A stretch of 42,879 nucleotides of DNA from a virus, in IMG/VR virus record IMGVR_UViG_3300025030_000204, positions 1 through 42,879 of that record. One strand, 5' to 3'. Every line of letters starts with the position of its first letter. Within the stretch, counting starts at the first letter, position 1. Under the pieces are notes generated by a model. That model made no database searches, was not told the origin of the DNA, and saw only the letters and a program-made list of their open reading frames with translations. Made by a program: the position numbers and the translations under genes. This document shows, piece after piece, positions 6,778 to 40,599 of this stretch.

Positions 6778-7470
6778 TTAATTTAATAATTCAAAAACTT
6801 CTTTTATTCCTTCACTAGCTTTTTTATTAATATAAGTAATTTCCATTCCAATTTTACTTAAACTTTTAACTGGGTTTGGATCAATAAAAAATACTTCACA
6901 AGATAATTTTATATAAGTTAACATTTGAAAACAATAATGGATAAATAAAGAAGTTCCAATTATTATTAAATAATCACATTTTTCAATTGTTTTATATGAT
7001 TCTTCAATATTACAAGGATATTCCCCAAACCAAACAACATGAGGTCTTAATTGTGAGCCATTTTCACATTTATCACCCAACTTTATATCATTATAACCAC
7101 AATCATATATTAAATCTTCATCTGATGAGCTTTGAGATTTTGTAAGTTCCCCATGAATGTGAATAACATTTGAAGAGCCACCCCTTTCATGTAAATTATC
7201 AACATTTTGAGTTATCACGGTAACATCAAAATTATTTTCAAGTTCTGCAATTAATTTATGCGCCAGATTTGGTTTTACATTTTCCAGTTGCCTTCTTCTT
7301 TCGTTATAAAAATCTAAAACTTTTTGTTTATCTTTGTGCCATGCACTTATTGTTGCAACATCATCTATTTTATGGTTTAACCATAAACCATTTTTTCCTG
7401 TCCTGAATGTTGGGATGCCAGATTCCTCACTTACGCCCGCACCAGTAAAAACAACTATTTTCTTTTTCAT
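6778..7470 (-). CDS. Sir2-family NAD-dependent protein deacylase
   Basis: A 230-residue sirtuin that would remove acyl groups from lysine using NAD. The NAD site is GAGVSEESGIPTFR (residues 10-23), then TQNVDNLHERGGS, the catalytic His in HIHGEL, RPHVVWFGE, and IIIGTSL near the C-terminus. FYNERRRQL carries the Tyr and Arg that in E. coli CobB and SIRT5 read succinyl or malonyl lysine. The structural zinc cysteines are mostly missing (only YDCGYND and DKCENG), as in a zinc-less subgroup. It is the only complete minus-strand gene in its neighbourhood and is divergent from 7532, with a palindromic TATTTATAAATA at 7491-7502 between them. It may modify host proteins or NAD metabolism; that is inference. 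Confidence 0.9.
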   Translation of the reverse strand: MKKKIVVFTGAGVSEESGIPTFRTGKNGLWLNHKIDDVATISAWHKDKQKVLDFYNERRRQLENVKPNLAHKLIAELENNFDVTVITQNVDNLHERGGSSNVIHIHGELTKSQSSSDEDLIYDCGYNDIKLGDKCENGSQLRPHVVWFGEYPCNIEESYKTIEKCDYLIIIGTSLFIHYCFQMLTYIKLSCEVFFIDPNPVKSLSKIGMEITYINKKASEGIKEVFELLN

Positions 7471-16389: not shown

Positions 16390-17505
16390 ATGTTAAAAGC
16401 ATATAAATATAGAATTTATCCAACAAAAGAACAAAAAATTCTGATAGAAAAACATTTTGGATGCTGCCGGCTCGTTTTTAATCTTGCATTGGAAATAAAG
16501 CAATATGCTTATAAAACACAGCATAAATATTTATCTTCTTTTGATTTATGTTATCAACTTCCTGATTTGAAAAAAGAATTCACATGGATTAATGAAATTG
16601 ATAGTCAGGCATTACAGTCAAGCATTAAAAAACTTGATATCGCCTTTAAGAATTTTTTAAAACACGGAGCAGGCTTTCCAAAGTATAAATCAAAGGACAA
16701 TAAACAAAGTTTTCAATGCCCCAATAATACACGCAGGATAAACTGGAAGGAAAATACTTTGGATTTGCCTAAAATAAAAGGGATTCCTATTGTATTATCA
16801 AGAACATTTAAGGGAAAAATAAAAACAATTACTATAAGCCGGACACCAACATATAAGTATTTTGCTTCCATTTTGGTAGATACAAATATTGTTATTCCAG
16901 AGAAACCACAAATAACAGAAAACAAAACATTAGGTATTGATTTAGGTTTGAAAGATTTTGCAATATTGAGCAATGGGGAGAAATTTGCTAACCCTAAATT
17001 TTTGAAAAACAATATTGAACGATTAAAAGTTTTACAAAGAAGAGCAAGCAAGAAAATGAAGGGAAGTCAAAACAAGAAGAAAGCAAATTTAAGAGTTGCT
17101 ATTAAACATGAAAATATAAAAAATAAACGGGATGACTTTCTGCACAAATTGTCTTCACGACTAATCTGCGAGAGCCAAGCAGATACATTTGTGTTTGAAA
17201 ATTTGTCATCTCAAAATATGATGGCTAATCATAATCTGGCACAAGCAATCAGCGATGTGAGTTGGGCCAAACTCGTTGAGATGATGAAATATAAAGGGGA
17301 ATGGTATGGAAAAAATATTTTATTCATTGACCGATTTGCGCCAAGCAGCAAGACTTGTTCTAATTGCAATTTTGTTAATGATAAATTAACATTATCAGAT
17401 AGAGATTGGCAATGTATTGTATGTGGCGTAACCCATGACCGGGACATCAATGCAGCAAAAAATATAAAGTTCATGGGATTAAAGAAAGTAAAGATATGGG
17501 ATTAA
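16390..17505 (+). CDS. tnpB: TnpB RNA-guided nuclease (IS200/IS605-type element)
   Basis: A 371-residue TnpB with intact active site: GIDLGLKDF (Asp about 184), VFENLS (Glu 270), a four-cysteine zinc ribbon (CSNC about 323-326, CIVC about 347-350) and HDRDINAAKNI. The N-terminus (KAYKYRIYPTKEQKILIEKH) is also typical. TnpB uses an RNA made from its own 3' end to cut DNA lacking the element. No TnpA is nearby. It sits just downstream of a late-type promoter. Its C-terminal frame ends early; the usual family tail (ELPTLAGTMKQE) is found in the next frame, so a frameshift or recombination removed it. A perfect 12-base palindrome GCCAACATTGGC (17546-17557) could be part of the right end. Confidence 0.9.
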   Translation: MLKAYKYRIYPTKEQKILIEKHFGCCRLVFNLALEIKQYAYKTQHKYLSSFDLCYQLPDLKKEFTWINEIDSQALQSSIKKLDIAFKNFLKHGAGFPKYKSKDNKQSFQCPNNTRRINWKENTLDLPKIKGIPIVLSRTFKGKIKTITISRTPTYKYFASILVDTNIVIPEKPQITENKTLGIDLGLKDFAILSNGEKFANPKFLKNNIERLKVLQRRASKKMKGSQNKKKANLRVAIKHENIKNKRDDFLHKLSSRLICESQADTFVFENLSSQNMMANHNLAQAISDVSWAKLVEMMKYKGEWYGKNILFIDRFAPSSKTCSNCNFVNDKLTLSDRDWQCIVCGVTHDRDINAAKNIKFMGLKKVKIWD

Positions 17506-18306: not shown

Positions 18307-18888
18307 ATGAATAATAATAATAATAATAATAATAGTAAGATACAATTGGAGGTGTTGGGACTATCATATAATCAAAACATGGGAAATAGTTACACATTAA
18401 TATTACAAGAATCAAAAGGTAATAGAAAAATACCAATTGTTATAGGAGAATCAGAGACACAATCAATTATAATGGTTCTTGAGGGTGTTATGACTCAAAG
18501 ACCGATGACTCATGATTTATTTGTTAAATTATGTTTGGAACATAATATTGAAATGGATGAGATTCTAATTTATAAATTAGAGGAAGGTGTATTTTATTCC
18601 AAATTAATATGTAAAGATATTATGAACAATGTTAAAGAAATTGATTCAAGAACATCTGATGCTATTGCATTAGCACTACGATTTGAATGTCCAATATATA
18701 TAAATGAAGATATTATGGATATTTCAAGTATTGATATTGGTGATGATAATAAAAAAATTGAGATATCTGATTTACCAGAATATAATAAAAAAGAATTAGA
18801 AAAAAAATTAGAGGAGGCAATTAGAATAGAGGACTATGAAAGTGCCAGCACTATAAGAGATATTATAAATAAAAAAAGAAAAAATTAA
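18307..18888 (+). CDS. Bifunctional nuclease-domain (DUF151) protein with UVR motif
   Basis: A 193-residue protein of a kind normally chromosomal in Bacteroidetes. Residues about 10-135 are the BFN/DUF151 domain: LEVLGLSYNQNMGNSYTLIL, RKIPIVIGESETQSI, MTHDLF, and the diagnostic IDSRTSDAIALALRFECPIY. The C-terminal 35 residues are a UvrB/UvrC (UVR) helix pair, KLEEAIRIEDYESASTIRD. The family has reported RNase/DNase activity; a phage role is unknown. The N-terminus is a run of eight Asn codons from an (AAT)n tract. It is the gene directly before the terminase, whose GTG follows this stop codon without a gap, so they are co-translated. Confidence 0.85.
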   Translation: MNNNNNNNNSKIQLEVLGLSYNQNMGNSYTLILQESKGNRKIPIVIGESETQSIIMVLEGVMTQRPMTHDLFVKLCLEHNIEMDEILIYKLEEGVFYSKLICKDIMNNVKEIDSRTSDAIALALRFECPIYINEDIMDISSIDIGDDNKKIEISDLPEYNKKELEKKLEEAIRIEDYESASTIRDIINKKRKN

Positions 18889-21837
18889 GTGGGTAGGACA
18901 TCAAAAGAAAATAGAATTGTTGAATTTGCAAAATGTATAAAAGACCCATCATATTATGCTGAAACTTTTTGTCAGACATTTGATATGACAAAAGATAAAA
19001 ATGTCCCATTTAAAATGTTTAGAAGACAAAGGGAATTAGTACAAAATTGTATTAATAATAGATATAATATTATTAAAAAACCAAGGCAAGCTGGGGTTAC
19101 AACATCCATTTCTTTATTTGCTGCATGTTATATGATGTTTCAAGAGAAAAGAAAAGTTATGATTGTTGCCAACAAACAGGACATGGCATTTGAAATGTTA
19201 AAAAAAATAAAAGAATTCATACATTTTGCTCCTAGTTGGATGGGAATTAATTTAACAAGAATTGCTCAGGGTATATTAGAATTAAATAATGGTAGTCTTG
19301 TTAAGGCATTTGCAACTTCAGAAGATGCTTTGAGGGGATTTACTCCAACTTTACTAATTATTGATGAGGCAAGTAATATTAGAGATGGTGCTGAATTTTG
19401 GGGTGCTGCACACCCTTCACTTGCAAGCGGGGGGAAATGTATTATATGCAGTACTCCAAGGGGAATGGACGAATTTTATTGGGCAATATATGATGCAGCT
19501 TTAAATAATAAAAGTAATTTTTATATAAATGAATTTAAGTGGTATGAAGATCCAAGATATAATGATAAATTAAAATGGACAAAGGGTGATTTAATTATTG
19601 ATACGTGGTTAAAAACAAAAGTAAAAGATGAAGATTACGAAGTATTTGAAAGATTAGAAGAAAAAGGATTTGAGCCAACTTCTCCCTGGTTTGAAGATCA
19701 ATGCAGGGAATTAAATTATGATAAAAGACGAATTTCACAAGAATTGTTGGGAAAATTTATTGGTTCTGGCGATAATGTTATTGATGAAAAAGATATTAAT
19801 TTTCAAGAAAAAGAAAATGTAATGCCACCGATAAGAAGTGAGGGATTTGATGGAAATGTATGGATTTGGAAAGATCCAATTCCAGATCATCAGTATATTT
19901 TGGGATGCTTACCACCTGGAGAAAAAGTATTGACAAACGAAGGATTAAAAAATATAGAGGATATAAAAATTGATAATTTACTTATAGATGAAAATGGAAA
20001 TTTTACTAAAATAAAAAATATTCAAACAACAAAAAATATAAATGATGAATTATATGAATTTAAATTAAGTAATGTTTGTAGAAAAACAATTTTTACTAGA
20101 AATCATCCAATATTATCAAGTATAAATACCGAACTAAAAAGAAATTGGAAAAGGAAGCATCCAGAACATAAATTTGGAAAACGATATTGGGATTTTAATT
20201 TCAATTTTATTAATTCAGAAAATTTAAAAATTAATGATTGGATCAAATATCCTAATTTATATTATAATAAGGATTTAACTGATAATGAAATATTATCAAA
20301 ATGGGATAAATATAAAAATATTGGTAGAACTGATTTTAAAATTAAAAACCCATTATTAGAAAAAGACTTTTGGTGGTATGTTGGGATATGGTTGGCCGAG
20401 GGGTGGTATTTAAAATCTAAAGCAGTTGAAAAAAGTAAAGGTTTATCAACTTGTCATAATATAAATGAAAAAATATTTGCATATAAAATAAAATTTTTGT
20501 GTGAAAAAATATTTAATAGAAAAGTAAATATAAGAGATAGAGAATCTGTAGTATATACACAATTTAACTCATTACAATTATATAGTTTTTTTCTTGATAA
20601 TTTTAGTGAATACGCCCATAATAAAAAATTACCTGAATGGGTAAAATATTTACCTAAAAAATATAAAATAGAAATTTTAAAAGGATATTTTGATGGTGAT
20701 GGGTGTTGGTCAAAAACATATAAAAACAATAAAGGTTTTTCTTTTATAGCATTTGTCAGTGTTTCTTTAGAATTATTAGAGGGAATTCAAGATCTATTAT
20801 TTTCATTAGGAATTATTTCCGCATTAAAAATATTGAGAAAGGGGGGGTTTTGTATTATTGAAAATAGAAAATTTAAAACTAAAATAACATACGACTTAAC
20901 TTTAGCACATTATGATAGTTTACAATTAGTTAATATGTTTAATATTAAAAAATATAATCATGTAAATATTAATGATTTTGAAATTAGAAATGAAAGAATT
21001 ATTTCTGGTACTTTAATCAGTAAAGATAATAAATGGATTTATCACAAAATAAAAGAAATAAATAAAATACCTTATAATGGAGATGTTTATAATTTTGAAA
21101 CAGAATCTCACACTTTTTTATGTAAAAATATAACAACACATAATTGTGATGTATCAAGGGGTGATAGTAGTGATTTTAGTACAATTTGTATAATAGATTT
21201 ACATGCTGGAGAACAGGTAGTGGAATATCAGGGAAAAATAACACCTGATTTTTTTGGGGAACTTATATATGATTATGCAAATAAGTATCAAGCATATACA
21301 ATAATTGATGTAACTGGTGGAATGGGGGTTGCCCCAATTCTAAAATTAATAGATATGGGATTTGATAAAAAATTACTTCATTATGATAATCCCAAATCCA
21401 GATTAATACAAGAAAAGTTGGGCAGATTTAAAAAAGGAGATAAATTACCAGGATTTAATATAGGAGCAAATAGAAATATGACCATAATGGAATTTGAAAG
21501 ACAAGTTAGAATGGGTGAGATAAAAATTAGATCAAAAAGATTAATAAATGAAATGAAAACTTTTATTTGGAAAAATGTTGGACCAAATGTCAGCAGACCA
21601 GATCATATTTCTGGAAAAAATGATGACCTTATTTGGAGTATATCAATGCCACTTTTTATTTCTCAAACAACATTTAAAAATCTTAAAAGATATAATGAAC
21701 AAACAAAAGCAATGTTGAGTAGCATGACATCTGATTCAAATCAATATAAGGATACAATAACACCACAAACAGGATATATGGGGAGAAATGATACAAAATG
21801 GGCATATCAAGAATATGGGTGGTTATTTAAAAAATAA
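18889..21837 (+). CDS. Terminase large subunit (T4 gp17-like) with an intein
   Basis: A 982-residue precursor starting at GTG directly after the previous stop. The extein is about 569 residues, close to T4 gp17. The ATPase half has Walker A at 64-72 (KKPRQAGVTT), Walker B near 157-164 (LLIIDEAS) and a CSTPRGMDEFYW coupling motif. The nuclease half has the RNase H-like CDVSRGDSSDFS, IIDVTGGMG and a DHISGKNDDLIW C-terminal motif with late Asp residues. It packages DNA into proheads by ATP hydrolysis and cuts concatemers. Residues 340-752 are an intein placed one residue before the first catalytic Asp of the nuclease, so the precursor should be inactive until splicing. Confidence 0.93.
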   Translation: MGRTSKENRIVEFAKCIKDPSYYAETFCQTFDMTKDKNVPFKMFRRQRELVQNCINNRYNIIKKPRQAGVTTSISLFAACYMMFQEKRKVMIVANKQDMAFEMLKKIKEFIHFAPSWMGINLTRIAQGILELNNGSLVKAFATSEDALRGFTPTLLIIDEASNIRDGAEFWGAAHPSLASGGKCIICSTPRGMDEFYWAIYDAALNNKSNFYINEFKWYEDPRYNDKLKWTKGDLIIDTWLKTKVKDEDYEVFERLEEKGFEPTSPWFEDQCRELNYDKRRISQELLGKFIGSGDNVIDEKDINFQEKENVMPPIRSEGFDGNVWIWKDPIPDHQYILGCLPPGEKVLTNEGLKNIEDIKIDNLLIDENGNFTKIKNIQTTKNINDELYEFKLSNVCRKTIFTRNHPILSSINTELKRNWKRKHPEHKFGKRYWDFNFNFINSENLKINDWIKYPNLYYNKDLTDNEILSKWDKYKNIGRTDFKIKNPLLEKDFWWYVGIWLAEGWYLKSKAVEKSKGLSTCHNINEKIFAYKIKFLCEKIFNRKVNIRDRESVVYTQFNSLQLYSFFLDNFSEYAHNKKLPEWVKYLPKKYKIEILKGYFDGDGCWSKTYKNNKGFSFIAFVSVSLELLEGIQDLLFSLGIISALKILRKGGFCIIENRKFKTKITYDLTLAHYDSLQLVNMFNIKKYNHVNINDFEIRNERIISGTLISKDNKWIYHKIKEINKIPYNGDVYNFETESHTFLCKNITTHNCDVSRGDSSDFSTICIIDLHAGEQVVEYQGKITPDFFGELIYDYANKYQAYTIIDVTGGMGVAPILKLIDMGFDKKLLHYDNPKSRLIQEKLGRFKKGDKLPGFNIGANRNMTIMEFERQVRMGEIKIRSKRLINEMKTFIWKNVGPNVSRPDHISGKNDDLIWSISMPLFISQTTFKNLKRYNEQTKAMLSSMTSDSNQYKDTITPQTGYMGRNDTKWAYQEYGWLFKK
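19906..21144 (+). other. Intein in terminase with LAGLIDADG endonuclease
   Basis: A 413-residue insert. It starts with Cys (CLPPGEKVLTNEGLKNIEDI), has block B TRNHPIL and ends THN followed by Cys (the +1 residue). Both LAGLIDADG motifs of a homing endonuclease are present: VGIWLAEGW and LKGYFDGDG. The tail (VYNFETESHTFLCKNITTHN) is a normal block F/G. It splits the nuclease active-site motif CDVSRGD of terminase. Confidence 0.93.
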
Positions 21838-21845
21838 AATAATTT

Positions 21846-22373
21846 ATGAATATATTAATAACAGAAAGTCAATTTAAAAGATTAATTGAAAACATTATTG
21901 ATGAAAGTAATAATGATATTAAAACACAAGAATTCATTGATATATTAAATCAGGAAAATATTCCTTATGAAATAAAAAATAATAAAATTATTATTGGTGG
22001 TGATAATAATATAAATTCTGAATTAATAACATATATTCCAGATAATGTTGAATTTAATAATGGTGATGATGTAGATTTAGATTATCTTAAAGAGATGGGA
22101 AATAATATTAAATTTAATAATAAAGGTTATGTAAATATAGATTCCCTTGATAGGGTAGGAAATAATATTCTATTTAATAATAAAGGTTATGTGGCTTTAG
22201 ATTCAATTATATGGTTTAGCATTAATTCCGTTAATTTTACAAATAATGTTAAAGATGTATATTTTGGAAAAGAATTATTCTGGGGAAATGAATTCCCTTA
22301 TCAGATATATAATATTAAAGGAAATTTTAAAATGTGGGATGATAAAAAAGGTGATTATAAAATAATAAAATAA
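21846..22373 (+). CDS. Unknown protein with TESQFKRLIE tag and short internal repeats
   Basis: A 175-residue protein. The N-terminus MNILITESQFKRLIENIIDE is one of the shared tags and almost identical to the start of the pseudogene at 28941. The body has repeating units of about 22 residues with the pattern (V/N)x(F)NN(K/G)G(Y/D)V(N/D)(I/L)D, for instance NNIKFNNKGYVNIDSLDRVG and NNILFNNKGYVALDS; these resemble beta-solenoid repeats. It lies between terminase and portal and has no late box directly upstream, so it is probably co-transcribed with terminase. Head-interior location is inferred from the tag. Confidence 0.65.
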   Translation: MNILITESQFKRLIENIIDESNNDIKTQEFIDILNQENIPYEIKNNKIIIGGDNNINSELITYIPDNVEFNNGDDVDLDYLKEMGNNIKFNNKGYVNIDSLDRVGNNILFNNKGYVALDSIIWFSINSVNFTNNVKDVYFGKELFWGNEFPYQIYNIKGNFKMWDDKKGDYKIIK

Positions 22374-22408
22374 TTTATGAAAAATTGGGCTTTTCTCAAA
22401 CTAACATA

Positions 22409-22416
22409 TATTTATA
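22409..22416 (+). promoter_or_regulatory. Late-type promoter
   Basis: TATTTATA with ATAC following and the extended upstream CTAACATA, 39 bases before the ATG at 22455. Confidence 0.55.
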
Positions 22417-22454
22417 ATACATAACATATATATAAAAACATAAAATAAATAACC

Positions 22455-22655
22455 ATGGGACAAACAATCTTTAATGAAATTAATAATATAGATTTTGATT
22501 TAAAAAAAATCAAATTACAAGTTCTTATTACGGATAATCTTGAAAAAAAAATGAATAAAAGAATATCTGAATTGTCATTGGAAAAGGGAACAAAACCTAA
22601 ACCAGTATCTACCTATGTGAGAGAATTAATTGAAAATGATTGTGAAAATAAATAA
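22455..22655 (+). CDS. Small protein, possible ribbon-helix-helix fold
   Basis: A 66-residue protein. The segment LQVLITDNLEKKMNKRISEL followed by STYVRELIEND matches the beta strand, helix, helix pattern of Arc/CopG-type DNA-binding proteins, with the second helix near the end. That is a pattern call only. It has a late-type promoter and precedes portal by 33 bases. It might be a late regulator or a small structural protein. Confidence 0.55.
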   Translation: MGQTIFNEINNIDFDLKKIKLQVLITDNLEKKMNKRISELSLEKGTKPKPVSTYVRELIENDCENK

Positions 22656-22674
22656 GTTTTTTAAATAATATAAA

Positions 22675-22682
22675 TATTTATA
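22675..22682 (+). promoter_or_regulatory. Late-type promoter for portal
   Basis: TATTTATA in AAATATTTATATAAAATATG, six bases before the portal ATG at 22689. Confidence 0.6.
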
Positions 22683-22688
22683 TAAAAT

Positions 22689-25600
22689 ATGGCAGAACAA
22701 CAAAAAACTACTTTATATCAACGACTTACAAAACTCTTTGGAACAGGTGGCCAACCTGTAATTGATAAAAAACCTTCAATATCAGCAAAAGAATTATTGA
22801 CAGCGACTTCTGCCGAAGAACTGATGTTAAAAAAATTAGCAGCCCAGCAATCACAATATTTGGGAAATCAATTTGAGAAAATAACATCCAATTTATATCA
22901 ACAATCAGTTTATTATGAAACAACAAGACTTGCAAGTTATGCGGATTTTACGGCCATGGAACATACCCCAGAAATTGCGGCCACTTTAGATCTTGTATCT
23001 GAAGAAAGCTGTCTAGCTGGGAATAGTACTATAAGATTATTAGATGGAACTAACCCAACAATAAAAAAATTATATAAAGAAAATAAAAAAAATTTTTGGA
23101 TATATTCTTATGATACTAATAATAATAAATTTATTCCATCTAAAGCAGAGAAAGTAATTTATAAAGGCATTCAAGATATATATTTGATTAAATTAGACGA
23201 TGATACAAAAATAAAATGTACTGGTAATCATAAATGGTTAGGGAAAGATAATAAGTGGATAGAAACACATGATTTATATAAAGGATATTTTTTCATTAAT
23301 CATAAGGTTATTTCTATAAAATATATGGGAAAAGAGAAAGTATATGATGTTGTTAATTCTGGTAAATTTAATAATTTTGGGGTTAAGTGTAATAGTGGGA
23401 TGATTATAAGTCATAATTGTACGCTCTCAGAATTTGGTAAAATGTTACAAGTATTCTCTGATAGTAAAAGAGTTAAAACAATTCTTGAAAATTTATTTTA
23501 TAAAACTTTAGATATTAACATTAATTTACCAGCATGGACAAGAAATACATGTTTATATGGCGATAATTTTATTTATCTTAAATCAGAAATTGGAAAGGGA
23601 ATTGTTGGGGTTAAACAACTTCCAAATATTGAAATAAGAAGAGAAGAGAGTTCGATTACTGATCAGAAAAATATGATTAGATTTATTTGGCAAGGAAAAA
23701 GTATGGAATTCACGGCCTGGCAAATTGCTCATTTTAGATTATTGGGGGACGATAGAAAATTACCTTACGGAAATTCTTTTTTAGAAAAAGTAAGGAAGAT
23801 ATGGAAAATGTTGATATTAGCAGAAGATGCAATGCTTGTCTATAGAATAACAAGAGCACCTGAAAGGCGTGTATTTAAAATTGATGTTGGAAACTTAGAT
23901 GATAAAGATGTTGAGCCGTATATTCAAAGAGTTGCTCAAAAATTTAAAAGACAGCCGCAAGCTGAAAATACTGGTAATTTTACAGGACAAGTAGATATGA
24001 GATATCGAACACTTCCAGTATGGAAAAATACTCCAATCCCATTATTGGATGGTAGAACAATAACAATAGAAGAATTATCAAAGGAATATGAAGAAGGAAA
24101 ATATAATGAGGTCTATTCTATAAAAGATAATACACATGAAATTGTTCCTGGAAAAGTTATTTGGTGTGGTAGGAATTATAAAGCAAATAAATTAATTAAA
24201 ATTTGGTTGGATAACAAAACATGGATAATGTCTGCACCAGAACATCCATTTATTTTAAGAGATGGTTCACATAGTAGAGCAGATAAATTATGTTCTGGTG
24301 ATAAATTAATGCCATTTAGACATGTTAAAATTAAAATAAAATATACAGAAGAAATTTATGAACCAGATGATGTATATTGTATGACTGTTGTTGGACCAAA
24401 TGGAGAAAATAATAGACATAATTTTGCTGTTTGCTCTCTTAATAAAGATGAAAACTATACGAGAAAGGGTGTATTTGTTAAGAATAGCACGGATGAAGAT
24501 TTTTTCTTACCAACAAGACAAGGTGGAGGAGATACAGAAATTGATACATTACCTGGTGCAAGCAATTTATGTCTTTCATTAGATACAAAAATTCCTCTAT
24601 TAGATGGTAGAACATTAAAATTAAAAGAAATTATCGAAGAGTATAAAAATAATAAAGATTTATGGGTTTATAGTTGTAATCCAAATACTGGTGAAATTAT
24701 TCCAGGGATCATTTCATGGGCGGGAATTACAAGAAAAAATGCTCATGTTTTAAAAATTACGTTAGACAACGGAAAAGAGATTATATCAACACCGGATCAT
24801 AAATTTTTAACAAGGGATGGACTAAAAAAAGAAGCAAAAGATTTAGAAATAAATGAATCTTTGATGCCGTTTCATAGAAAAAAAGAAAAAATAAGTAAAA
24901 ATTCTAGTGACTATGAAATGATTTGGGATAATTCAAAACAAAAATGGATTTTTATTCATAGAATGGTTGGTAGTTATATGAAAGATAAAAATTTACATAA
25001 TGAATTAATACATAATAATAAATTTATAAATGAAAATAAAAATATTATTCATCATAACAATATGAACCGATTTTGCAATAATCCTAGCAATTTATATTTT
25101 ATGAGTAGAAATGATCATATAGATCTTCACTGTGATTTTAATAATAATTTATTAGAGTGGAATAAAAATCCAATTAATTTAAAACAAAAAGGAAAATTAA
25201 TAAGTAAAACAAAATCAGATCCAGAACGTAAAAAAATATATTCAAAAAACGCTAAAAAATTATGGGAAAATAAAGAATATAAAAATAAAGTATTTAGCAA
25301 ACCACAAAAAATTATATTTACTGATAAGTTATATTCAATATTTTTTGATACTTTTAAATTATATGGCAGAAGTGATTTAACTCTTGAAAAATTAAATTCT
25401 AATAAAATCTTTATGCATGAATTTATATTGTCAAATTCAAATATTCGTAGCTCGATGACCAATTTATCAGAATTTACTCATAATCATGTAGATAAAATGG
25501 TTAAAGAAAAAGGATATAAAAATTATCGAGAATGGGTTAAAAAAACTTCTGATAATTTGGGATATAAAAATGTTAATTCTTGGAGATATTATATTGCTAA

Positions 25601-26636
25601 AGAAAATAAAACAGGAAAATATACTACTCATAGATTTTTAGAACAAGATTACTATAATCATAAAATTACTAAAATTGAATGGTTGGAAGAAAAAATTGAT
25701 ACTGGAACAATTACCGTAGATGGAGAACATAAATATCATAATTTTCATACTTTTGCAGTAGAATCTGGGGTGTTTATATATAATTCTGAAATTGCAGATA
25801 TAGAATATATCCAGCGTAAATTATTCACAGCAATGAGAGTTCCAAAGGCATTTCTTGGTTTTGAGGAAGCAATTGGTGAAGGAAAAAACTTGGCACTTCA
25901 AGATATAAGATTTGCTCGTACAATTAATCGTATTCAACAATCAATGATTCAGGAATTAAATAAAATCGCCATTATCCATTTATATATGTTAGGATTTGAA
26001 GAGGAACTTGACAATTTTACTTTAACACTAAATTCCCCATCAACACAGGCAGAGATGTTAAAGATTGAACAGTGGAAAGAAAAAGTATTATTATATAAGG
26101 ATTTGGTATCATTAAATGATACAGGATTTGCTGCAACGTCAATGACATGGGCCAAAAAGAATATTCTTGGTTTCTCTGATGATGAAATTATATTGGATCT
26201 TAAACAACAAAGAGTGGAAAAGGCTGCAGGAAAAGAAAATGAAGCGCCAGAACAAATTATTCATACAGGATTATTTGATGCTTTGGATAAACGTTATCAA
26301 CAAAAACCAGGGGAAGAAGCACCAGAAGGTGGTGAAGGTGGCGCACCTGGCGAATTACCAGGTGTTGGTGGAATGGGTGGGGGTGAAGAATTACAACCAC
26401 CAGGTGGAGGGCCAGGAGGTGGTGGAATGCCAGAACTTCCTGAATTAACTGAAGAAAATAAAATTAATATATTGGAAAGTGAAGATAAGGAACAAGATTC
26501 AAAATATAAAATATTGAATGATGATTCTAAAGTATTAAATGAAGATTTAAAAACAATGTTTGAATCTTTGGATGAAACGTTAAGTGAAAATAAAGAGATT
26601 ATTATAAAAAAAATTGAAGATGATGAAAAAGAGTAA
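22689..26636 (+). CDS. Portal protein (T4 gp20-like) with three inteins
   Basis: A 1315-residue precursor; removing the inteins leaves about 619 residues. The extein shows T4 portal features: YYETTRLASYADFTAMEHTP, DLVSEES/CTLSEFGKMLQVFSD, APERRVFKIDVGNL, STDEDFFLPTRQGGGDTEID, TLPGASNL/SEIADIEYIQRK, LFTAMRVPKAFLGFEEAIGE and KNLALQDIRFARTINRIQQS. It forms the dodecameric DNA channel at one capsid vertex and docks the terminase and neck. The C-terminal part has a Gly/Pro-rich tract (GGGPGGGGMPELPE) and an acidic helix, longer than in T4. Three separate inteins sit at residues 108-243, about 445-599, and 628-1032; at least two of the sites are in well-conserved motifs. Missing splicing of any one should block head assembly. 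Confidence 0.93.
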   Translation: MAEQQKTTLYQRLTKLFGTGGQPVIDKKPSISAKELLTATSAEELMLKKLAAQQSQYLGNQFEKITSNLYQQSVYYETTRLASYADFTAMEHTPEIAATLDLVSEESCLAGNSTIRLLDGTNPTIKKLYKENKKNFWIYSYDTNNNKFIPSKAEKVIYKGIQDIYLIKLDDDTKIKCTGNHKWLGKDNKWIETHDLYKGYFFINHKVISIKYMGKEKVYDVVNSGKFNNFGVKCNSGMIISHNCTLSEFGKMLQVFSDSKRVKTILENLFYKTLDININLPAWTRNTCLYGDNFIYLKSEIGKGIVGVKQLPNIEIRREESSITDQKNMIRFIWQGKSMEFTAWQIAHFRLLGDDRKLPYGNSFLEKVRKIWKMLILAEDAMLVYRITRAPERRVFKIDVGNLDDKDVEPYIQRVAQKFKRQPQAENTGNFTGQVDMRYRTLPVWKNTPIPLLDGRTITIEELSKEYEEGKYNEVYSIKDNTHEIVPGKVIWCGRNYKANKLIKIWLDNKTWIMSAPEHPFILRDGSHSRADKLCSGDKLMPFRHVKIKIKYTEEIYEPDDVYCMTVVGPNGENNRHNFAVCSLNKDENYTRKGVFVKNSTDEDFFLPTRQGGGDTEIDTLPGASNLCLSLDTKIPLLDGRTLKLKEIIEEYKNNKDLWVYSCNPNTGEIIPGIISWAGITRKNAHVLKITLDNGKEIISTPDHKFLTRDGLKKEAKDLEINESLMPFHRKKEKISKNSSDYEMIWDNSKQKWIFIHRMVGSYMKDKNLHNELIHNNKFINENKNIIHHNNMNRFCNNPSNLYFMSRNDHIDLHCDFNNNLLEWNKNPINLKQKGKLISKTKSDPERKKIYSKNAKKLWENKEYKNKVFSKPQKIIFTDKLYSIFFDTFKLYGRSDLTLEKLNSNKIFMHEFILSNSNIRSSMTNLSEFTHNHVDKMVKEKGYKNYREWVKKTSDNLGYKNVNSWRYYIAKENKTGKYTTHRFLEQDYYNHKITKIEWLEEKIDTGTITVDGEHKYHNFHTFAVESGVFIYNSEIADIEYIQRKLFTAMRVPKAFLGFEEAIGEGKNLALQDIRFARTINRIQQSMIQELNKIAIIHLYMLGFEEELDNFTLTLNSPSTQAEMLKIEQWKEKVLLYKDLVSLNDTGFAATSMTWAKKNILGFSDDEIILDLKQQRVEKAAGKENEAPEQIIHTGLFDALDKRYQQKPGEEAPEGGEGGAPGELPGVGGMGGGEELQPPGGGPGGGGMPELPELTEENKINILESEDKEQDSKYKILNDDSKVLNEDLKTMFESLDETLSENKEIIIKKIEDDEKE
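23010..23417 (+). other. Portal intein 1 (mini-intein, 136 residues)
   Basis: Starts with Cys (CLAGNSTIRLLDGTNPTIKK), block B KCTGNHKWLG, block F VYDVVNSGKFNNFGV, ends IISHN before Cys. No endonuclease domain is present, so it is a splicing-only mini-intein with a class 1 arrangement. Confidence 0.93.
24021..24485 (+). other. Portal intein 2, lacking a canonical first residue (about 155 residues)
   Basis: Hint-type blocks are clear: TPIPLLDGRTITIEELSKEY, SAPEHPFILRDG (block B, Ala in place of Thr before xxH), DDVYCMTVVGPNGENNRHNF (block F) and KGVFVKN before Ser. No Cys, Ser or Thr lies at the expected start; the sequence there is LPVWKNTPI. Block F has Cys at the usual Asp position (VYCMTV), as in class 3 inteins that use that Cys as nucleophile. 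The N-terminal junction is uncertain by a few residues (start set at Trp). The penultimate residue is Lys, not His. Confidence 0.8.
24570..25784 (+). other. Portal intein 3 with HNH endonuclease (405 residues)
   Basis: Starts with Cys (CLSLDTKIPLLDGRTLKLKE), block B STPDHKFLTRDG, ends GVFIYN before Ser. The middle has an HNH-type core, IIHHNNMNRFCNNPSNLYFM then SRNDHIDLH, and a DNA-binding segment. The penultimate residue is Tyr rather than His. It interrupts the conserved LPGxxN loop of portal. Confidence 0.92.
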
Positions 26637-26936: not shown

Positions 26937-28154
26937 ATGCAACTTGTTGAACAACATTTAATCAAAAATACATCAGAATCATTTAAGGAATGTGAAGATG
27001 TTTGTTTTAAAACAAAAAACTTATACAATTATTCTTTATATCTAATCAGATAAGCATATATTAAAGAAAATAAAAATATTATTTTTGATTTATATCATCA
27101 TATAAAGAAACATGAATCTTATAGCGCCTTACCAAGGAAAGTTTCATCCAATGTTTTGTTAATGGTACAGAAGAATTTTAAATCATTTTTCAAAGCATTA
27201 ACATTATATCAAAAAAACCCAAATAAATTTAAAGGAAGACCTGGTTTACCAAAATATTTGGATAAACAAAAGGGAAGATACATTGCTTGGTTTACAAATC
27301 AAGCCGTATCAAAAAAAGTATTTAAAAAAACAGGAAAAATTAAACTTTCACAATGTAATATAGAATTTAAAACAAAATTAAAATCTTTTGAGGAAATTGA
27401 TTGTGTCAGAATTGTCCCAAAAAATAATCACCATGTAATTGAGGTGGTTTATACAATAGTAACACCAGAAAAATTAACGGATAATAACAAATATGCAGCA
27501 ATTGATTTGGGTGTGAATAATTTAGCAACGATTGTATCAAATGTTAAAAAATTTAAACCATTAATTATAAATGGAAAACCATTAAAATCCATTAATCAGT
27601 TTTACAATAAAAAGAAAGCACATTTGCAATCTGTTAATGAAATAAGACATAAAATAAAAACAAGCAGACAAGTACAGAAACTTGATTTAAAAAGACAAAA
27701 TAAAATCAATCATTATCTTCATGTTTCCAGCAAATTAATTGTTAACATTCTCAAAGAAAATAATATTAATACTTTGATTATAGGGAAAAATGATAATTGG
27801 AAACAAGAGGTGAATATTGGAACAAAAAATAATCAGAATTTTGTCAGCATACCACACAGTAGATTTATAAATTTTATCAATTATAAATGCGAAAAAGAAG
27901 GTATAAATGTTATAACTAAAAATGAAAATTATACATCTAAATGTTCCTTTTTGGATTTGGAAACGATCCGAAAGCATAAAATGTATAAAGGAAAAAGAAT
28001 CAAAAGGGGTTTATTTATTTCTTCAGAAGGAAGAAAAATAAATGCTGATGTGAATGGTAGTTATAATATGTTAATAAAAGTAATTCCAAACGTCTTTGAC
28101 AATGGAATAGAGGGTGTCGGAATTCATCCAAGGGTCATAAAAATCCTGAAGTGA
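26937..28154 (+). pseudogene. TnpB-family gene with an in-frame stop codon
   Basis: From ATG 26937 the frame reads MQLVEQHLIKNTSESFKECE through LYLIR, then TAA, then AYIKENKNI and on to 28154. The N-terminus resembles the intact paralogue at 39370-40599 (MQLVERHIRINDKAIED), so the stop (CAA to TAA would restore Gln) breaks a real gene; ORF from ATG 27156 is only a 332-residue remnant. The RuvC Asp (AAIDLGVNNLATI) and NADVNGSYN are present. The usual second acidic residue is replaced (LIIGKNDNWKQE), and the zinc ribbon is reduced to TSKCSF, as in the 39370 protein. Confidence 0.75.
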
Positions 28155-39369: not shown

Positions 39370-40599
39370 TCAAACATTACATTTGAGTTCAAATGATTTT
39401 ACAAATTCAACTTTGTATGGGTTAAACCCTAACCCTATATTCCTTATGTTACTTATGAATTTTTCACATTCAGGAATTACTTTTGATTTTAACATTATTC
39501 CAATTGCACCATTAACATCAGCATTTATTGTTTTGCCAATACTACTTAAAAATAAACCACGCTTTATTCTTTTGCCAAGATAAATTGCTTGTTTTTGTAT
39601 CGGTTCAAATGCCAAATGGTCGCATTTACTGGTATAACTTTCTTCCTGCTCAACAAGTTTTATGCTGTTGAGTTCTAACTTATATTTTATTTTATCTATA
39701 AGTTTGGCATGAGGGATAGAAACAAAATTCTGGTTATTACGGCTACCAATATTTATTTTCTTCTTCCAATGTTCATTTTTACCGATAACAACTGTCCCAA
39801 TATTATACTTTAAACAGTATTTAAGAATGAAATCGCCTACCTGGTGCATTGCATTTTCTATCTTGTTATTCCTGTCAAAAGTTAATTTATTTATTCTGTT
39901 TGACGTCCCTTTATTACCAACATAACTCATTAACTTGGCTCGCTTTTTATTAAAATACGCATTGATGGATTTTAATCCTCTACCGTTGATAATGAAAGGC
40001 TTATTACCGACATTATCTATTGCTGTGATAAGATTGTTTAATCCCAAATCAATGCTTAATACATTTTCTTCTTTTATTTTTTCATGTTTTACCTCCTTTT
40101 TTTCATAGACAACTTCTATTACAAAACAAGTTGCTTGTGGAATTATTCTCACTTGTGATATATTATCTACTTTTGTTTTTAATGGTTGAATATTTGCTTG
40201 TTTTGGAAAATGTATAAGTCCCCCTTTTAAATTAACTTGCTGATTAGTGAAAATGCAAATAGAATATCCAGCCTTATCTTTGTATTTTGGTTGCTTAGGG
40301 TTTCCTTTAAATTTGCTTGGGCATTTTTTATATTCTTTTAATGCTTTGAAATATGACTTCCAGTTCTTAAAAAGTAATTTTATTATTTGCTGCGATGTTT
40401 GTGCCGGCAATGCCCTATAATCTTCCTGGTTAAATTCAGCAAGCAATTTAGATAATTCATATTCCTCAAATTTCTGTATATTACCAAAAAATGCTTGCCG
40501 TTTGTGATAATTACAAAAATTATACAATCTGGCTGATTTAAAACAAATATCCTCTATTGCTTTATCGTTTATCCTAATATGTCGCTCTACGAGTTGCAT
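39370..40599 (-). CDS. TnpB-family protein with altered active site
   Basis: A 409-residue relative of TnpB. The first RuvC Asp is present (LSIDLGLNNLI) and so is the last (NADVNGAIGI). The usual RuvC-II Glu motif (V/F-E-N/D-L) reads TVVIGKNEHWKKKINIG. The zinc ribbon is reduced to TSKCDHLAF and LFLSSIGKT, without the second Cys pair. So it is either a TnpB with a rearranged catalytic site or a nuclease-dead form. The pseudogene at 26937 is a close paralogue. Its 3' end lies 20 bases from the 3' end of tRNA-Phe. On the minus strand a TATTTATA (40636-40629) lies about 30 bases upstream. No tnpA is visible. Confidence 0.85.
   Translation of the reverse strand: MQLVERHIRINDKAIEDICFKSARLYNFCNYHKRQAFFGNIQKFEEYELSKLLAEFNQEDYRALPAQTSQQIIKLLFKNWKSYFKALKEYKKCPSKFKGNPKQPKYKDKAGYSICIFTNQQVNLKGGLIHFPKQANIQPLKTKVDNISQVRIIPQATCFVIEVVYEKKEVKHEKIKEENVLSIDLGLNNLITAIDNVGNKPFIINGRGLKSINAYFNKKRAKLMSYVGNKGTSNRINKLTFDRNNKIENAMHQVGDFILKYCLKYNIGTVVIGKNEHWKKKINIGSRNNQNFVSIPHAKLIDKIKYKLELNSIKLVEQEESYTSKCDHLAFEPIQKQAIYLGKRIKRGLFLSSIGKTINADVNGAIGIMLKSKVIPECEKFISNIRNIGLGFNPYKVEFVKSFELKCNV

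Follow-up and report, generated by a model that had tools for sequence, protein, structure and literature searches.

Intein insertions in the terminase and portal genes

The window, as we call the whole stretch of 42,879 bases analysed here, is a T4-like phage record, on which the genes for the terminase large subunit (TerL), a gp20-like portal protein, the prohead protease (PF03420) and the gp23 major capsid protein (PF07068) are arranged in this order. TerL (18889-21837) and portal (22689-26636) are each encoded by a single long open frame, and the following features were predicted within the two frames.

18889-21837, + strand: TerL (T4 gp17-like) precursor, 982 aa (PF03237, E=1.7e-18; profile of relatives against T4 gp17 structures, E=5.5e-47)
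19906-21144, + strand: TerL intein, 413 aa, Cys1, block B TRNH, ends HN, Cys+1 (PF14528, PF14890; empty site in about 60 homologues; alleles in L088 and crAss-like phages)
22689-26636, + strand: portal protein (T4 gp20-like) precursor, 1315 aa (PF07230, E=5.5e-53; relatives match PDB gp20)
23010-23417, + strand: portal intein P1, mini-intein of 136 aa without endonuclease, Cys1, TGNH, Asp F:4, ends HN, Cys+1 (PF14890; empty site; same-site allele in L144)
24015-24485, + strand: portal intein P2, 157 aa, non-canonical (empty sites in homologues, family comparison; AlphaFold2 Hint fold)
24378-24380, + strand: codon of Cys122 (F:4), a residue invariant in the P2 family and the putative first nucleophile (family alignment)
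24570-25784, + strand: portal intein P3, 405 aa, Cys1, TPDH, Thr F:4, HNH-type endonuclease, ends YN, Ser+1 (PF14890, TIGR01445; HNH phrog_21964, E=5.6e-4; empty site)

Four matches to the Intein_splicing family PF14890 were obtained in the window, one in the TerL frame and three in the portal frame, the TerL match falling under the family cut-off when taken singly. The TerL segment aligned end to end with same-site inteins of locus L088 (45% over 420 aa) and of the crAss-like phage cr118_1 (34%), and the Hint fold and splicing blocks are present in the inteins (PF14890, TIGR01445). Among 78 IMG/VR loci with related portals, the insertion site of each portal intein is empty in about 75, and these portals read SEES-xT (SEES-TT), RYNQM-AVDQDYF and AQNL-xEIAD (GAQNL-GEIAD), where the hyphen marks the insertion site; likewise, about 60 TerL homologues without insert read YIMG-(V/I/L)DVSRGD. 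Since the intein-free homologues run straight through the sites, all four intein boundaries are fixed without gaps. As judged from these comparisons, the four segments are almost certainly inteins, i.e. in-frame mobile elements that would cut themselves out of both precursor proteins and ligate the flanking exteins. One intein in TerL and three in portal had been proposed from the letters of this DNA alone (hereafter, the sequence-only reading), and this number was confirmed by the PF14890 matches together with the boundaries; its assignment of a LAGLIDADG type to TerL, a mini-intein to P1 and an HNH type to P3 agrees with the domain matches. The alignment of exteins with intein-free homologues, which it had suggested as a check, gave uninterrupted sequence at all four sites, and removal of the inserts left exteins of 569 aa for TerL and 617 aa for portal, against its estimates of about 569 and 619.

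Because a 100% identical portal is carried by two further IMG/VR contigs of 76.8 and 91.4 kb, the portal arrangement is not an assembly error. A search of the window for group I introns with Rfam returned tRNAs only.

Class 1 features (Cys1, TxxH in block B, terminal Asn, and Cys or Ser at +1) were found in the TerL intein, P1 and P3. By these residues all three look like ordinary class 1 inteins, which would most likely splice by an acyl shift at Cys1, transfer to the +1 residue and Asn cyclization. In P3, for which alleles were found in L095, L101, L108 and L109, the penultimate His is replaced by Tyr. Its insertion directly after LPGASNL bears out the earlier placement in the LPGxxN loop, and the portal profile matches T4 gp20 (3ja7) through both the P2 and P3 sites. 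The TerL intein carries the LAGLIDADG endonuclease motifs VGIWLAEGW and LKGYFDGDG. It is inserted one residue ahead of the Asp of DVSRGD, which was aligned, by using a profile of intein-free TerL relatives, with residue 401 of T4 gp17 chain 3ezk; as we take this residue to be the catalytic Asp401 of T4 gp17, the location just before the nuclease catalytic Asp given by the sequence-only reading holds.

A homologous LAGLIDADG intein is present at the same TerL nuclease site in the crAss-like phages cr118_1, cr131_1 and cr7_1, whereas the window phage is T4-like, and the cr131_1 and cr7_1 alleles are interrupted by stops under the standard code. TerL inteins have been reported in crAss Delta-group phages (PMC7886860). 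As in the window, TerL and portal genes are where the inteins of mycobacteriophages are concentrated (PMC5050341), but their TerL inteins are located in the ATPase domain instead of the nuclease domain.

Two other arrangements of TerL were noted in the loci examined. In L007 (2080-5650), TerL is split, the first frame ending with ELECLAYDTEITIRNKETGDIEKIMIGDLYNKIY and a stop and the next one starting with MFKSNTKYEILTPNGF and leading to ISHN-CDFLGSG; this atypically split intein, with an N part of about 35 aa, resembles AceL-TerL, and a second intein of LAGLIDADG type, ending HQ-T, lies in the ATPase domain. In L078 (4560-7900), TerL is encoded in two frames about 1.3 kb apart with overlapping matches, possibly representing a self-splicing intron or a split gene.

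The portal intein P2 and its family

P2 starts with Pro1 and carries APEH (AxEH) in block B, with His77 at B:10, VYCMTV in block F, with Cys122 at F:4, and a KN end, with Asn157 followed by Ser+1. It lacks the class 3 residues Trp B:12 and Thr G:5, the class 1 residue Thr B:7 and the penultimate His (G:6). The HNH domain of its relatives in L007 and L085, which are inteins of 392 and 397 aa, has been lost in P2, leaving a mini-intein of 157 aa. The description of P2 in the sequence-only reading as a variant without known endonuclease was correct as to an intein without endonuclease, but the Pro1 start was missed and the junction peptide was not given; the spliced junction is predicted to be YRTLSTDEDFF (YRTL-STDEDFF). 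Starts elsewhere, such as Asn5 (VWK-NTPI), were rejected, as the extein would then keep extra residues relative to intein-free portals. Residue 1 is Cys, Ser or Thr in class 1 inteins and Pro in P2, with the boundary set by the empty sites; on this residue pattern P2 cannot use the class 1 route.

An AlphaFold2 model of P2, built with the family alignment, gave the Hint fold with pLDDT of 92.7 and pTM of 0.88. Foldseek with this model returned many class 1 and class 3 inteins at probability 1.00, and the class 3 structures 6rix, 6riy and 6bs8 ranked under several class 1 ones; the fold alone does not tell the intein class of P2. When P2 profiles were used to look for class 3 structures in the PDB by sequence, the matches were class 1 inteins and unrelated proteins, and no class 3 structure was among them.

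Relatives were collected by two scans. The first used an alignment of three P2 sequences and the words PVWK[ND]TP or WCG[KR]NY[TK], neither of which includes block F, and yielded 51 viral-contig loci plus a single locus from genome contigs; removal of copies left 38 distinct readable inteins. Pro1, Cys F:4 and His B:10 were found in all 38, including Pro1 in the members caught solely by WCG[KR]NY[TK], which does not contain residue 1. Trp B:12 was present in none (the position being Phe, Leu, Ile, Val, Met or Tyr), nor was His G:6, and G:5 was Val, Leu, Ile, Met or Cys but never the Thr of class 3. The last residue was Asn (Gln once), and the +1 residue Ser, Cys or Thr. The second scan of viral contigs, for DNA encoding VYCMxVVG (block F as sole key), gave Pro1 in 50 of the 53 machine-parsed inteins, with the reservation that both scans recover only relatives carrying the search words; the intein of L169 was also Pro1 when its block A was read by eye. 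Rows with automatically misread block F or splice ends were likewise read by eye.

The dN/dS ratio of the splicing domain was 0.05-0.19 for estimable pairs and mostly lower than that of the endonuclease region, with approximate domain borders, and by this measure the splicing domains of the P2 family are under purifying selection. As far as the scans reached, P2-family inteins were found in T4-like portal genes only. The single P2-like match in cellular genomes was L144 (NVTD01000053.1), on a contig binned as Candidatus Wolfebacteria; its portal is T4-like and has four inteins, and the DNA is probably that of a phage which ended up in a metagenome bin. No published report of a Pro1-Cys F:4 portal intein family was found in searches of open-licence papers. 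The P2 family is apparently a new intein family, without the usual first catalytic residue and with an internal Cys instead.

Splicing chemistry and origin of the P2 family

In the class 3 route, splicing starts with an attack of Cys F:4 on the N-terminal junction, from where the acyl group is passed on to the +1 residue (PMC5222942, PMC7891396). For P2 we infer a similar order of steps, in which Cys122 (F:4), aided by His77 (B:10), would attack the Leu(-1)-Pro1 peptide bond, the acyl group would be transferred to Ser+1, and Asn157 would cyclize without a penultimate His, joining the exteins. Such a class-3-like path is the best reading for P2 because Cys F:4, His B:10, Asn and +1 Ser are all present. 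Against it, P2 has only the Cys of the Trp-Cys-Thr signature of class 3 and no penultimate His, and C51, invariant together with W50, could have a role. The missing Trp B:12 and His G:6 are no bar to this path, however, since AceL NrdHF, a split class 3 intein of the MCT variant that also lacks both, splices well, in minutes, using an internal Cys (Cys124) that is required (PMC7891396). In the same intein, replacement of Thr G:5 by Ala made splicing only about tenfold slower, and the A1G mutant was dead (PMC7891396). By analogy, Pro1 could keep the Leu-Pro junction bond of P2 strained, as AceL NrdHF seems to need. AceL NrdHF differs from P2 in being split, in its Thr G:5 and Ala1, and in its location in a ribonucleotide reductase gene; P2 is unsplit and lacks Thr G:5.

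The known class 3 (WCT) inteins, such as Msm DnaBi1, MchDnaB1 and mycobacteriophage Bethlehem DnaB, resemble P2 in sequence in their non-nucleophilic residue 1, Cys at F:4, His at B:10 and block B without Thr. The P2 family differs from them by the absence of Trp B:12, Thr G:5 and His G:6, by Pro1, by an HNH instead of a LAGLIDADG endonuclease and by its location in portal instead of DnaB; in addition, its basal members have Cys1, and its +1 residue can be Cys. The closest sequence relatives of P2 are class 1 portal HNH inteins, e.g. P3 (44% over 112 aa), which share the gene and the endonuclease type but have Cys1, TxxH, and Thr, Asp or Asn at F:4.

Two inteins from the second scan, in L163 and L175, combine Cys1, Cys F:4 and TPDH; both are inserted at the portal site WTRNT-CKYGD, and many Pro1 inteins share this WTRNT site. 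A tree was constructed for 83 inteins from the first 100 residues minus residue 1 (99 columns, with block F outside the stretch), in which these two Cys1 plus Cys F:4 sequences were included. The root was placed between the class 1 and Cys F:4 clades, in agreement with the midpoint and the natural outgroup, and is an assumption. The Cys F:4 inteins formed one side of a branch (100/97), opposite to the other portal inteins used. Within the Cys F:4 clade, L175 was basal and L163 branched next (100/93, 99/84), followed by Pro1 inteins at the WTRNT site, most of them with TxxH. A later clade (100/99), with AxEH predominating, contained some WTRNT-site inteins and all P2-site inteins, the latter forming a clade of their own (99/93). 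In an earlier, smaller tree, the Pro1 family likewise came out as a single clade (99/90), next to class 1 portal inteins. The F:4 residue of readable class 1 outgroup inteins was Asp, Thr or Asn, and Cys in none.

Along this branching order, F:4 would have changed from Asp, Thr or Asn to Cys in a class 1 portal intein, giving a doubly armed stage with Cys1 and Cys F:4 as in L163 and L175, after which Cys1 would have become dispensable and been replaced by Pro. Loss of the block B Thr (TxxH to AxEH) would have followed, and finally a move of the intein to a second site in the same portal gene. The block B Thr serves Cys1 in class 1 inteins.

Other readings of P2 were weighed against the class-3-like path. 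P2 could be an intein-like domain that is dead or performs cleavage alone, with the portal being cut or left unspliced; several standard catalytic residues are absent, and related portal inteins are densely packed. The portal is essential for tailed-phage heads, however, the boundaries are exact, and Pro1, Cys F:4, Asn (Gln once) and a +1 nucleophile are kept in many divergent phages under purifying selection, so that a dead P2 is very improbable. Class 2 chemistry would agree with the non-nucleophilic position 1 (by the definition in PMC5222942) and with the +1 residue, which is always Ser, Cys or Thr in the P2 family. This reading is improbable, as class 1 and class 2 inteins conserve Asp where class 3 has Cys (PMC6195587), and F:4 is invariably Cys in the family, including P2, against Asp, Thr or Asn in its class 1 sisters; in the tree, moreover, Cys F:4 arises before the loss of Cys1.

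With respect to ancestry, the P2 family might descend from the known WCT class 3 inteins, with secondary loss of Trp and Thr. Cys F:4 and a non-nucleophilic residue 1 are common to both, rare deviations at Trp and Thr are known in class 3 (PMC7891396), and the tree contained no class 3 sequence. We nevertheless consider this descent unlikely, as the family nests beside class 1 portal HNH inteins in both trees as well as by its similarity to P3, its basal members retain Cys1 and TxxH, its profile finds class 1 but no class 3 structures in the PDB, and its endonuclease is HNH whereas most class 3 inteins are LAGLIDADG (PMC7891396). The sequences favour instead, with some reserve, a second and independent origin of class-3-type splicing from class 1 in the Pro1-Cys F:4 portal inteins; the reserve is due to the shortness of the tree (99 columns), the two transitional sequences on which it depends, the absence of class 3 references and the chance that P2 chemistry is of class 2.

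Class 3 has been described as monophyletic, all members going back to a single progenitor in a phage in which Cys1 and the ability to splice were lost first (PMC3196547), and as unable to evolve directly from class 1 or 2 (PMC7664689). If the independent origin is true, the P2 family is a natural counter-example to both the monophyly view (PMC3196547) and the no-direct-route view (PMC7664689). A problem in intein evolution is how a self-splicing element that is essential could exchange its first nucleophile while staying active throughout. The P2 family and its relatives are living candidates for every step within one gene, and the path is therefore testable with about five constructs. The family also suggests that the Trp-Cys-Thr signature may miss class-3-like inteins, and includes inteins of small size (157-173 aa) in which the two nucleophiles are both located near the C-terminal half.

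Homing and the portal gene as intein hot spot

Taken as a whole, the sequences make it probable that, of the four inteins in the window, the TerL intein, P1 and P3 are of class 1 and P2 is class-3-like through Cys122 and of a family derived from class 1 portal inteins, and that they are homing elements rather than regulators. The sequence-only reading had offered two explanations of their presence, invasion by several homing elements and a timing or redox control of packaging. Invasion is well supported by homologous same-site inteins in distant phages, abundant empty sites, and endonucleases kept in some inteins and lost in others; empty sites in most relatives and gain and loss of endonucleases are what homing predicts. 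Control of packaging found no direct support, and an essential regulatory role is argued against because most relatives are without inteins.

That the four inteins together form a timing or redox switch of head filling is a most improbable reading. In its favour, the insertion sites lie at conserved motifs, and the invariant C51 and C122 of P2 recall the redox trap formed by Cys48 and Cys118 in Msm DnaBi1, an intein of class 3 (PMC6195587). W50 and C51 are likewise invariant in the P2 family (37-row alignment; Trp-Cys codons at 24162-24167 of the window), and Trp-Cys is already present in L163 and L175, where class 1 sisters have W-A or W-V. C51 is a possible redox partner of Cys122; its equation with Cys48 of Msm DnaBi1 was not supported, as C51 lies 26 residues from His B:10, against 17 for Cys48. 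Against the switch, most homologues lack inteins, the intein sets vary among relatives, and homing alone predicts insertion at conserved motifs. The four inteins, of which P1 and P2 have lost their endonucleases, are better described as homing elements than as regulators.

Portal genes of T4-like phages are a hot spot for inteins, with as many as five in a single gene among the loci examined. Five were found in the portal of L149, a record of 244.7 kb, in a single 2,366-aa frame (from 3772 on the reverse strand), at the sites SRY-S, PYGH-S, WRQL-T, IVR-S and YGAM-S; to our knowledge, this is more per gene than has been reported. Four inteins were found in the 2,319-aa portal of L085/L150, as in that of L144, and three in LR756508.1.

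Some portal inteins deviate at their ends. In L085 (509-1828), an intein with Cys1 ends ARQ-S, with Gln in place of the last Asn and without a penultimate His. At the MEF-T site, inteins starting with Ser were observed in L009 (6053, SVDGGTK), L100 (1727, SIHGDTK) and L144 (917, SIVGNTK), and Cys1 alleles occur beside them.

Elsewhere in the window, three genes of OrfB/TnpB type (IS605, Cas12f1-like) were noted at 16390-17505, 27156-28154 and 39370-40599, with no TnpA partner noticed. A gene with a bifunctional nuclease (BFN) domain and UVR motif (18307-18888) lies directly upstream of TerL in the head-gene cluster, and a Sir2-family protein (PF02146, E=5e-41) is encoded at 6778-7470 on the opposite strand, adjoining the tRNA cluster.
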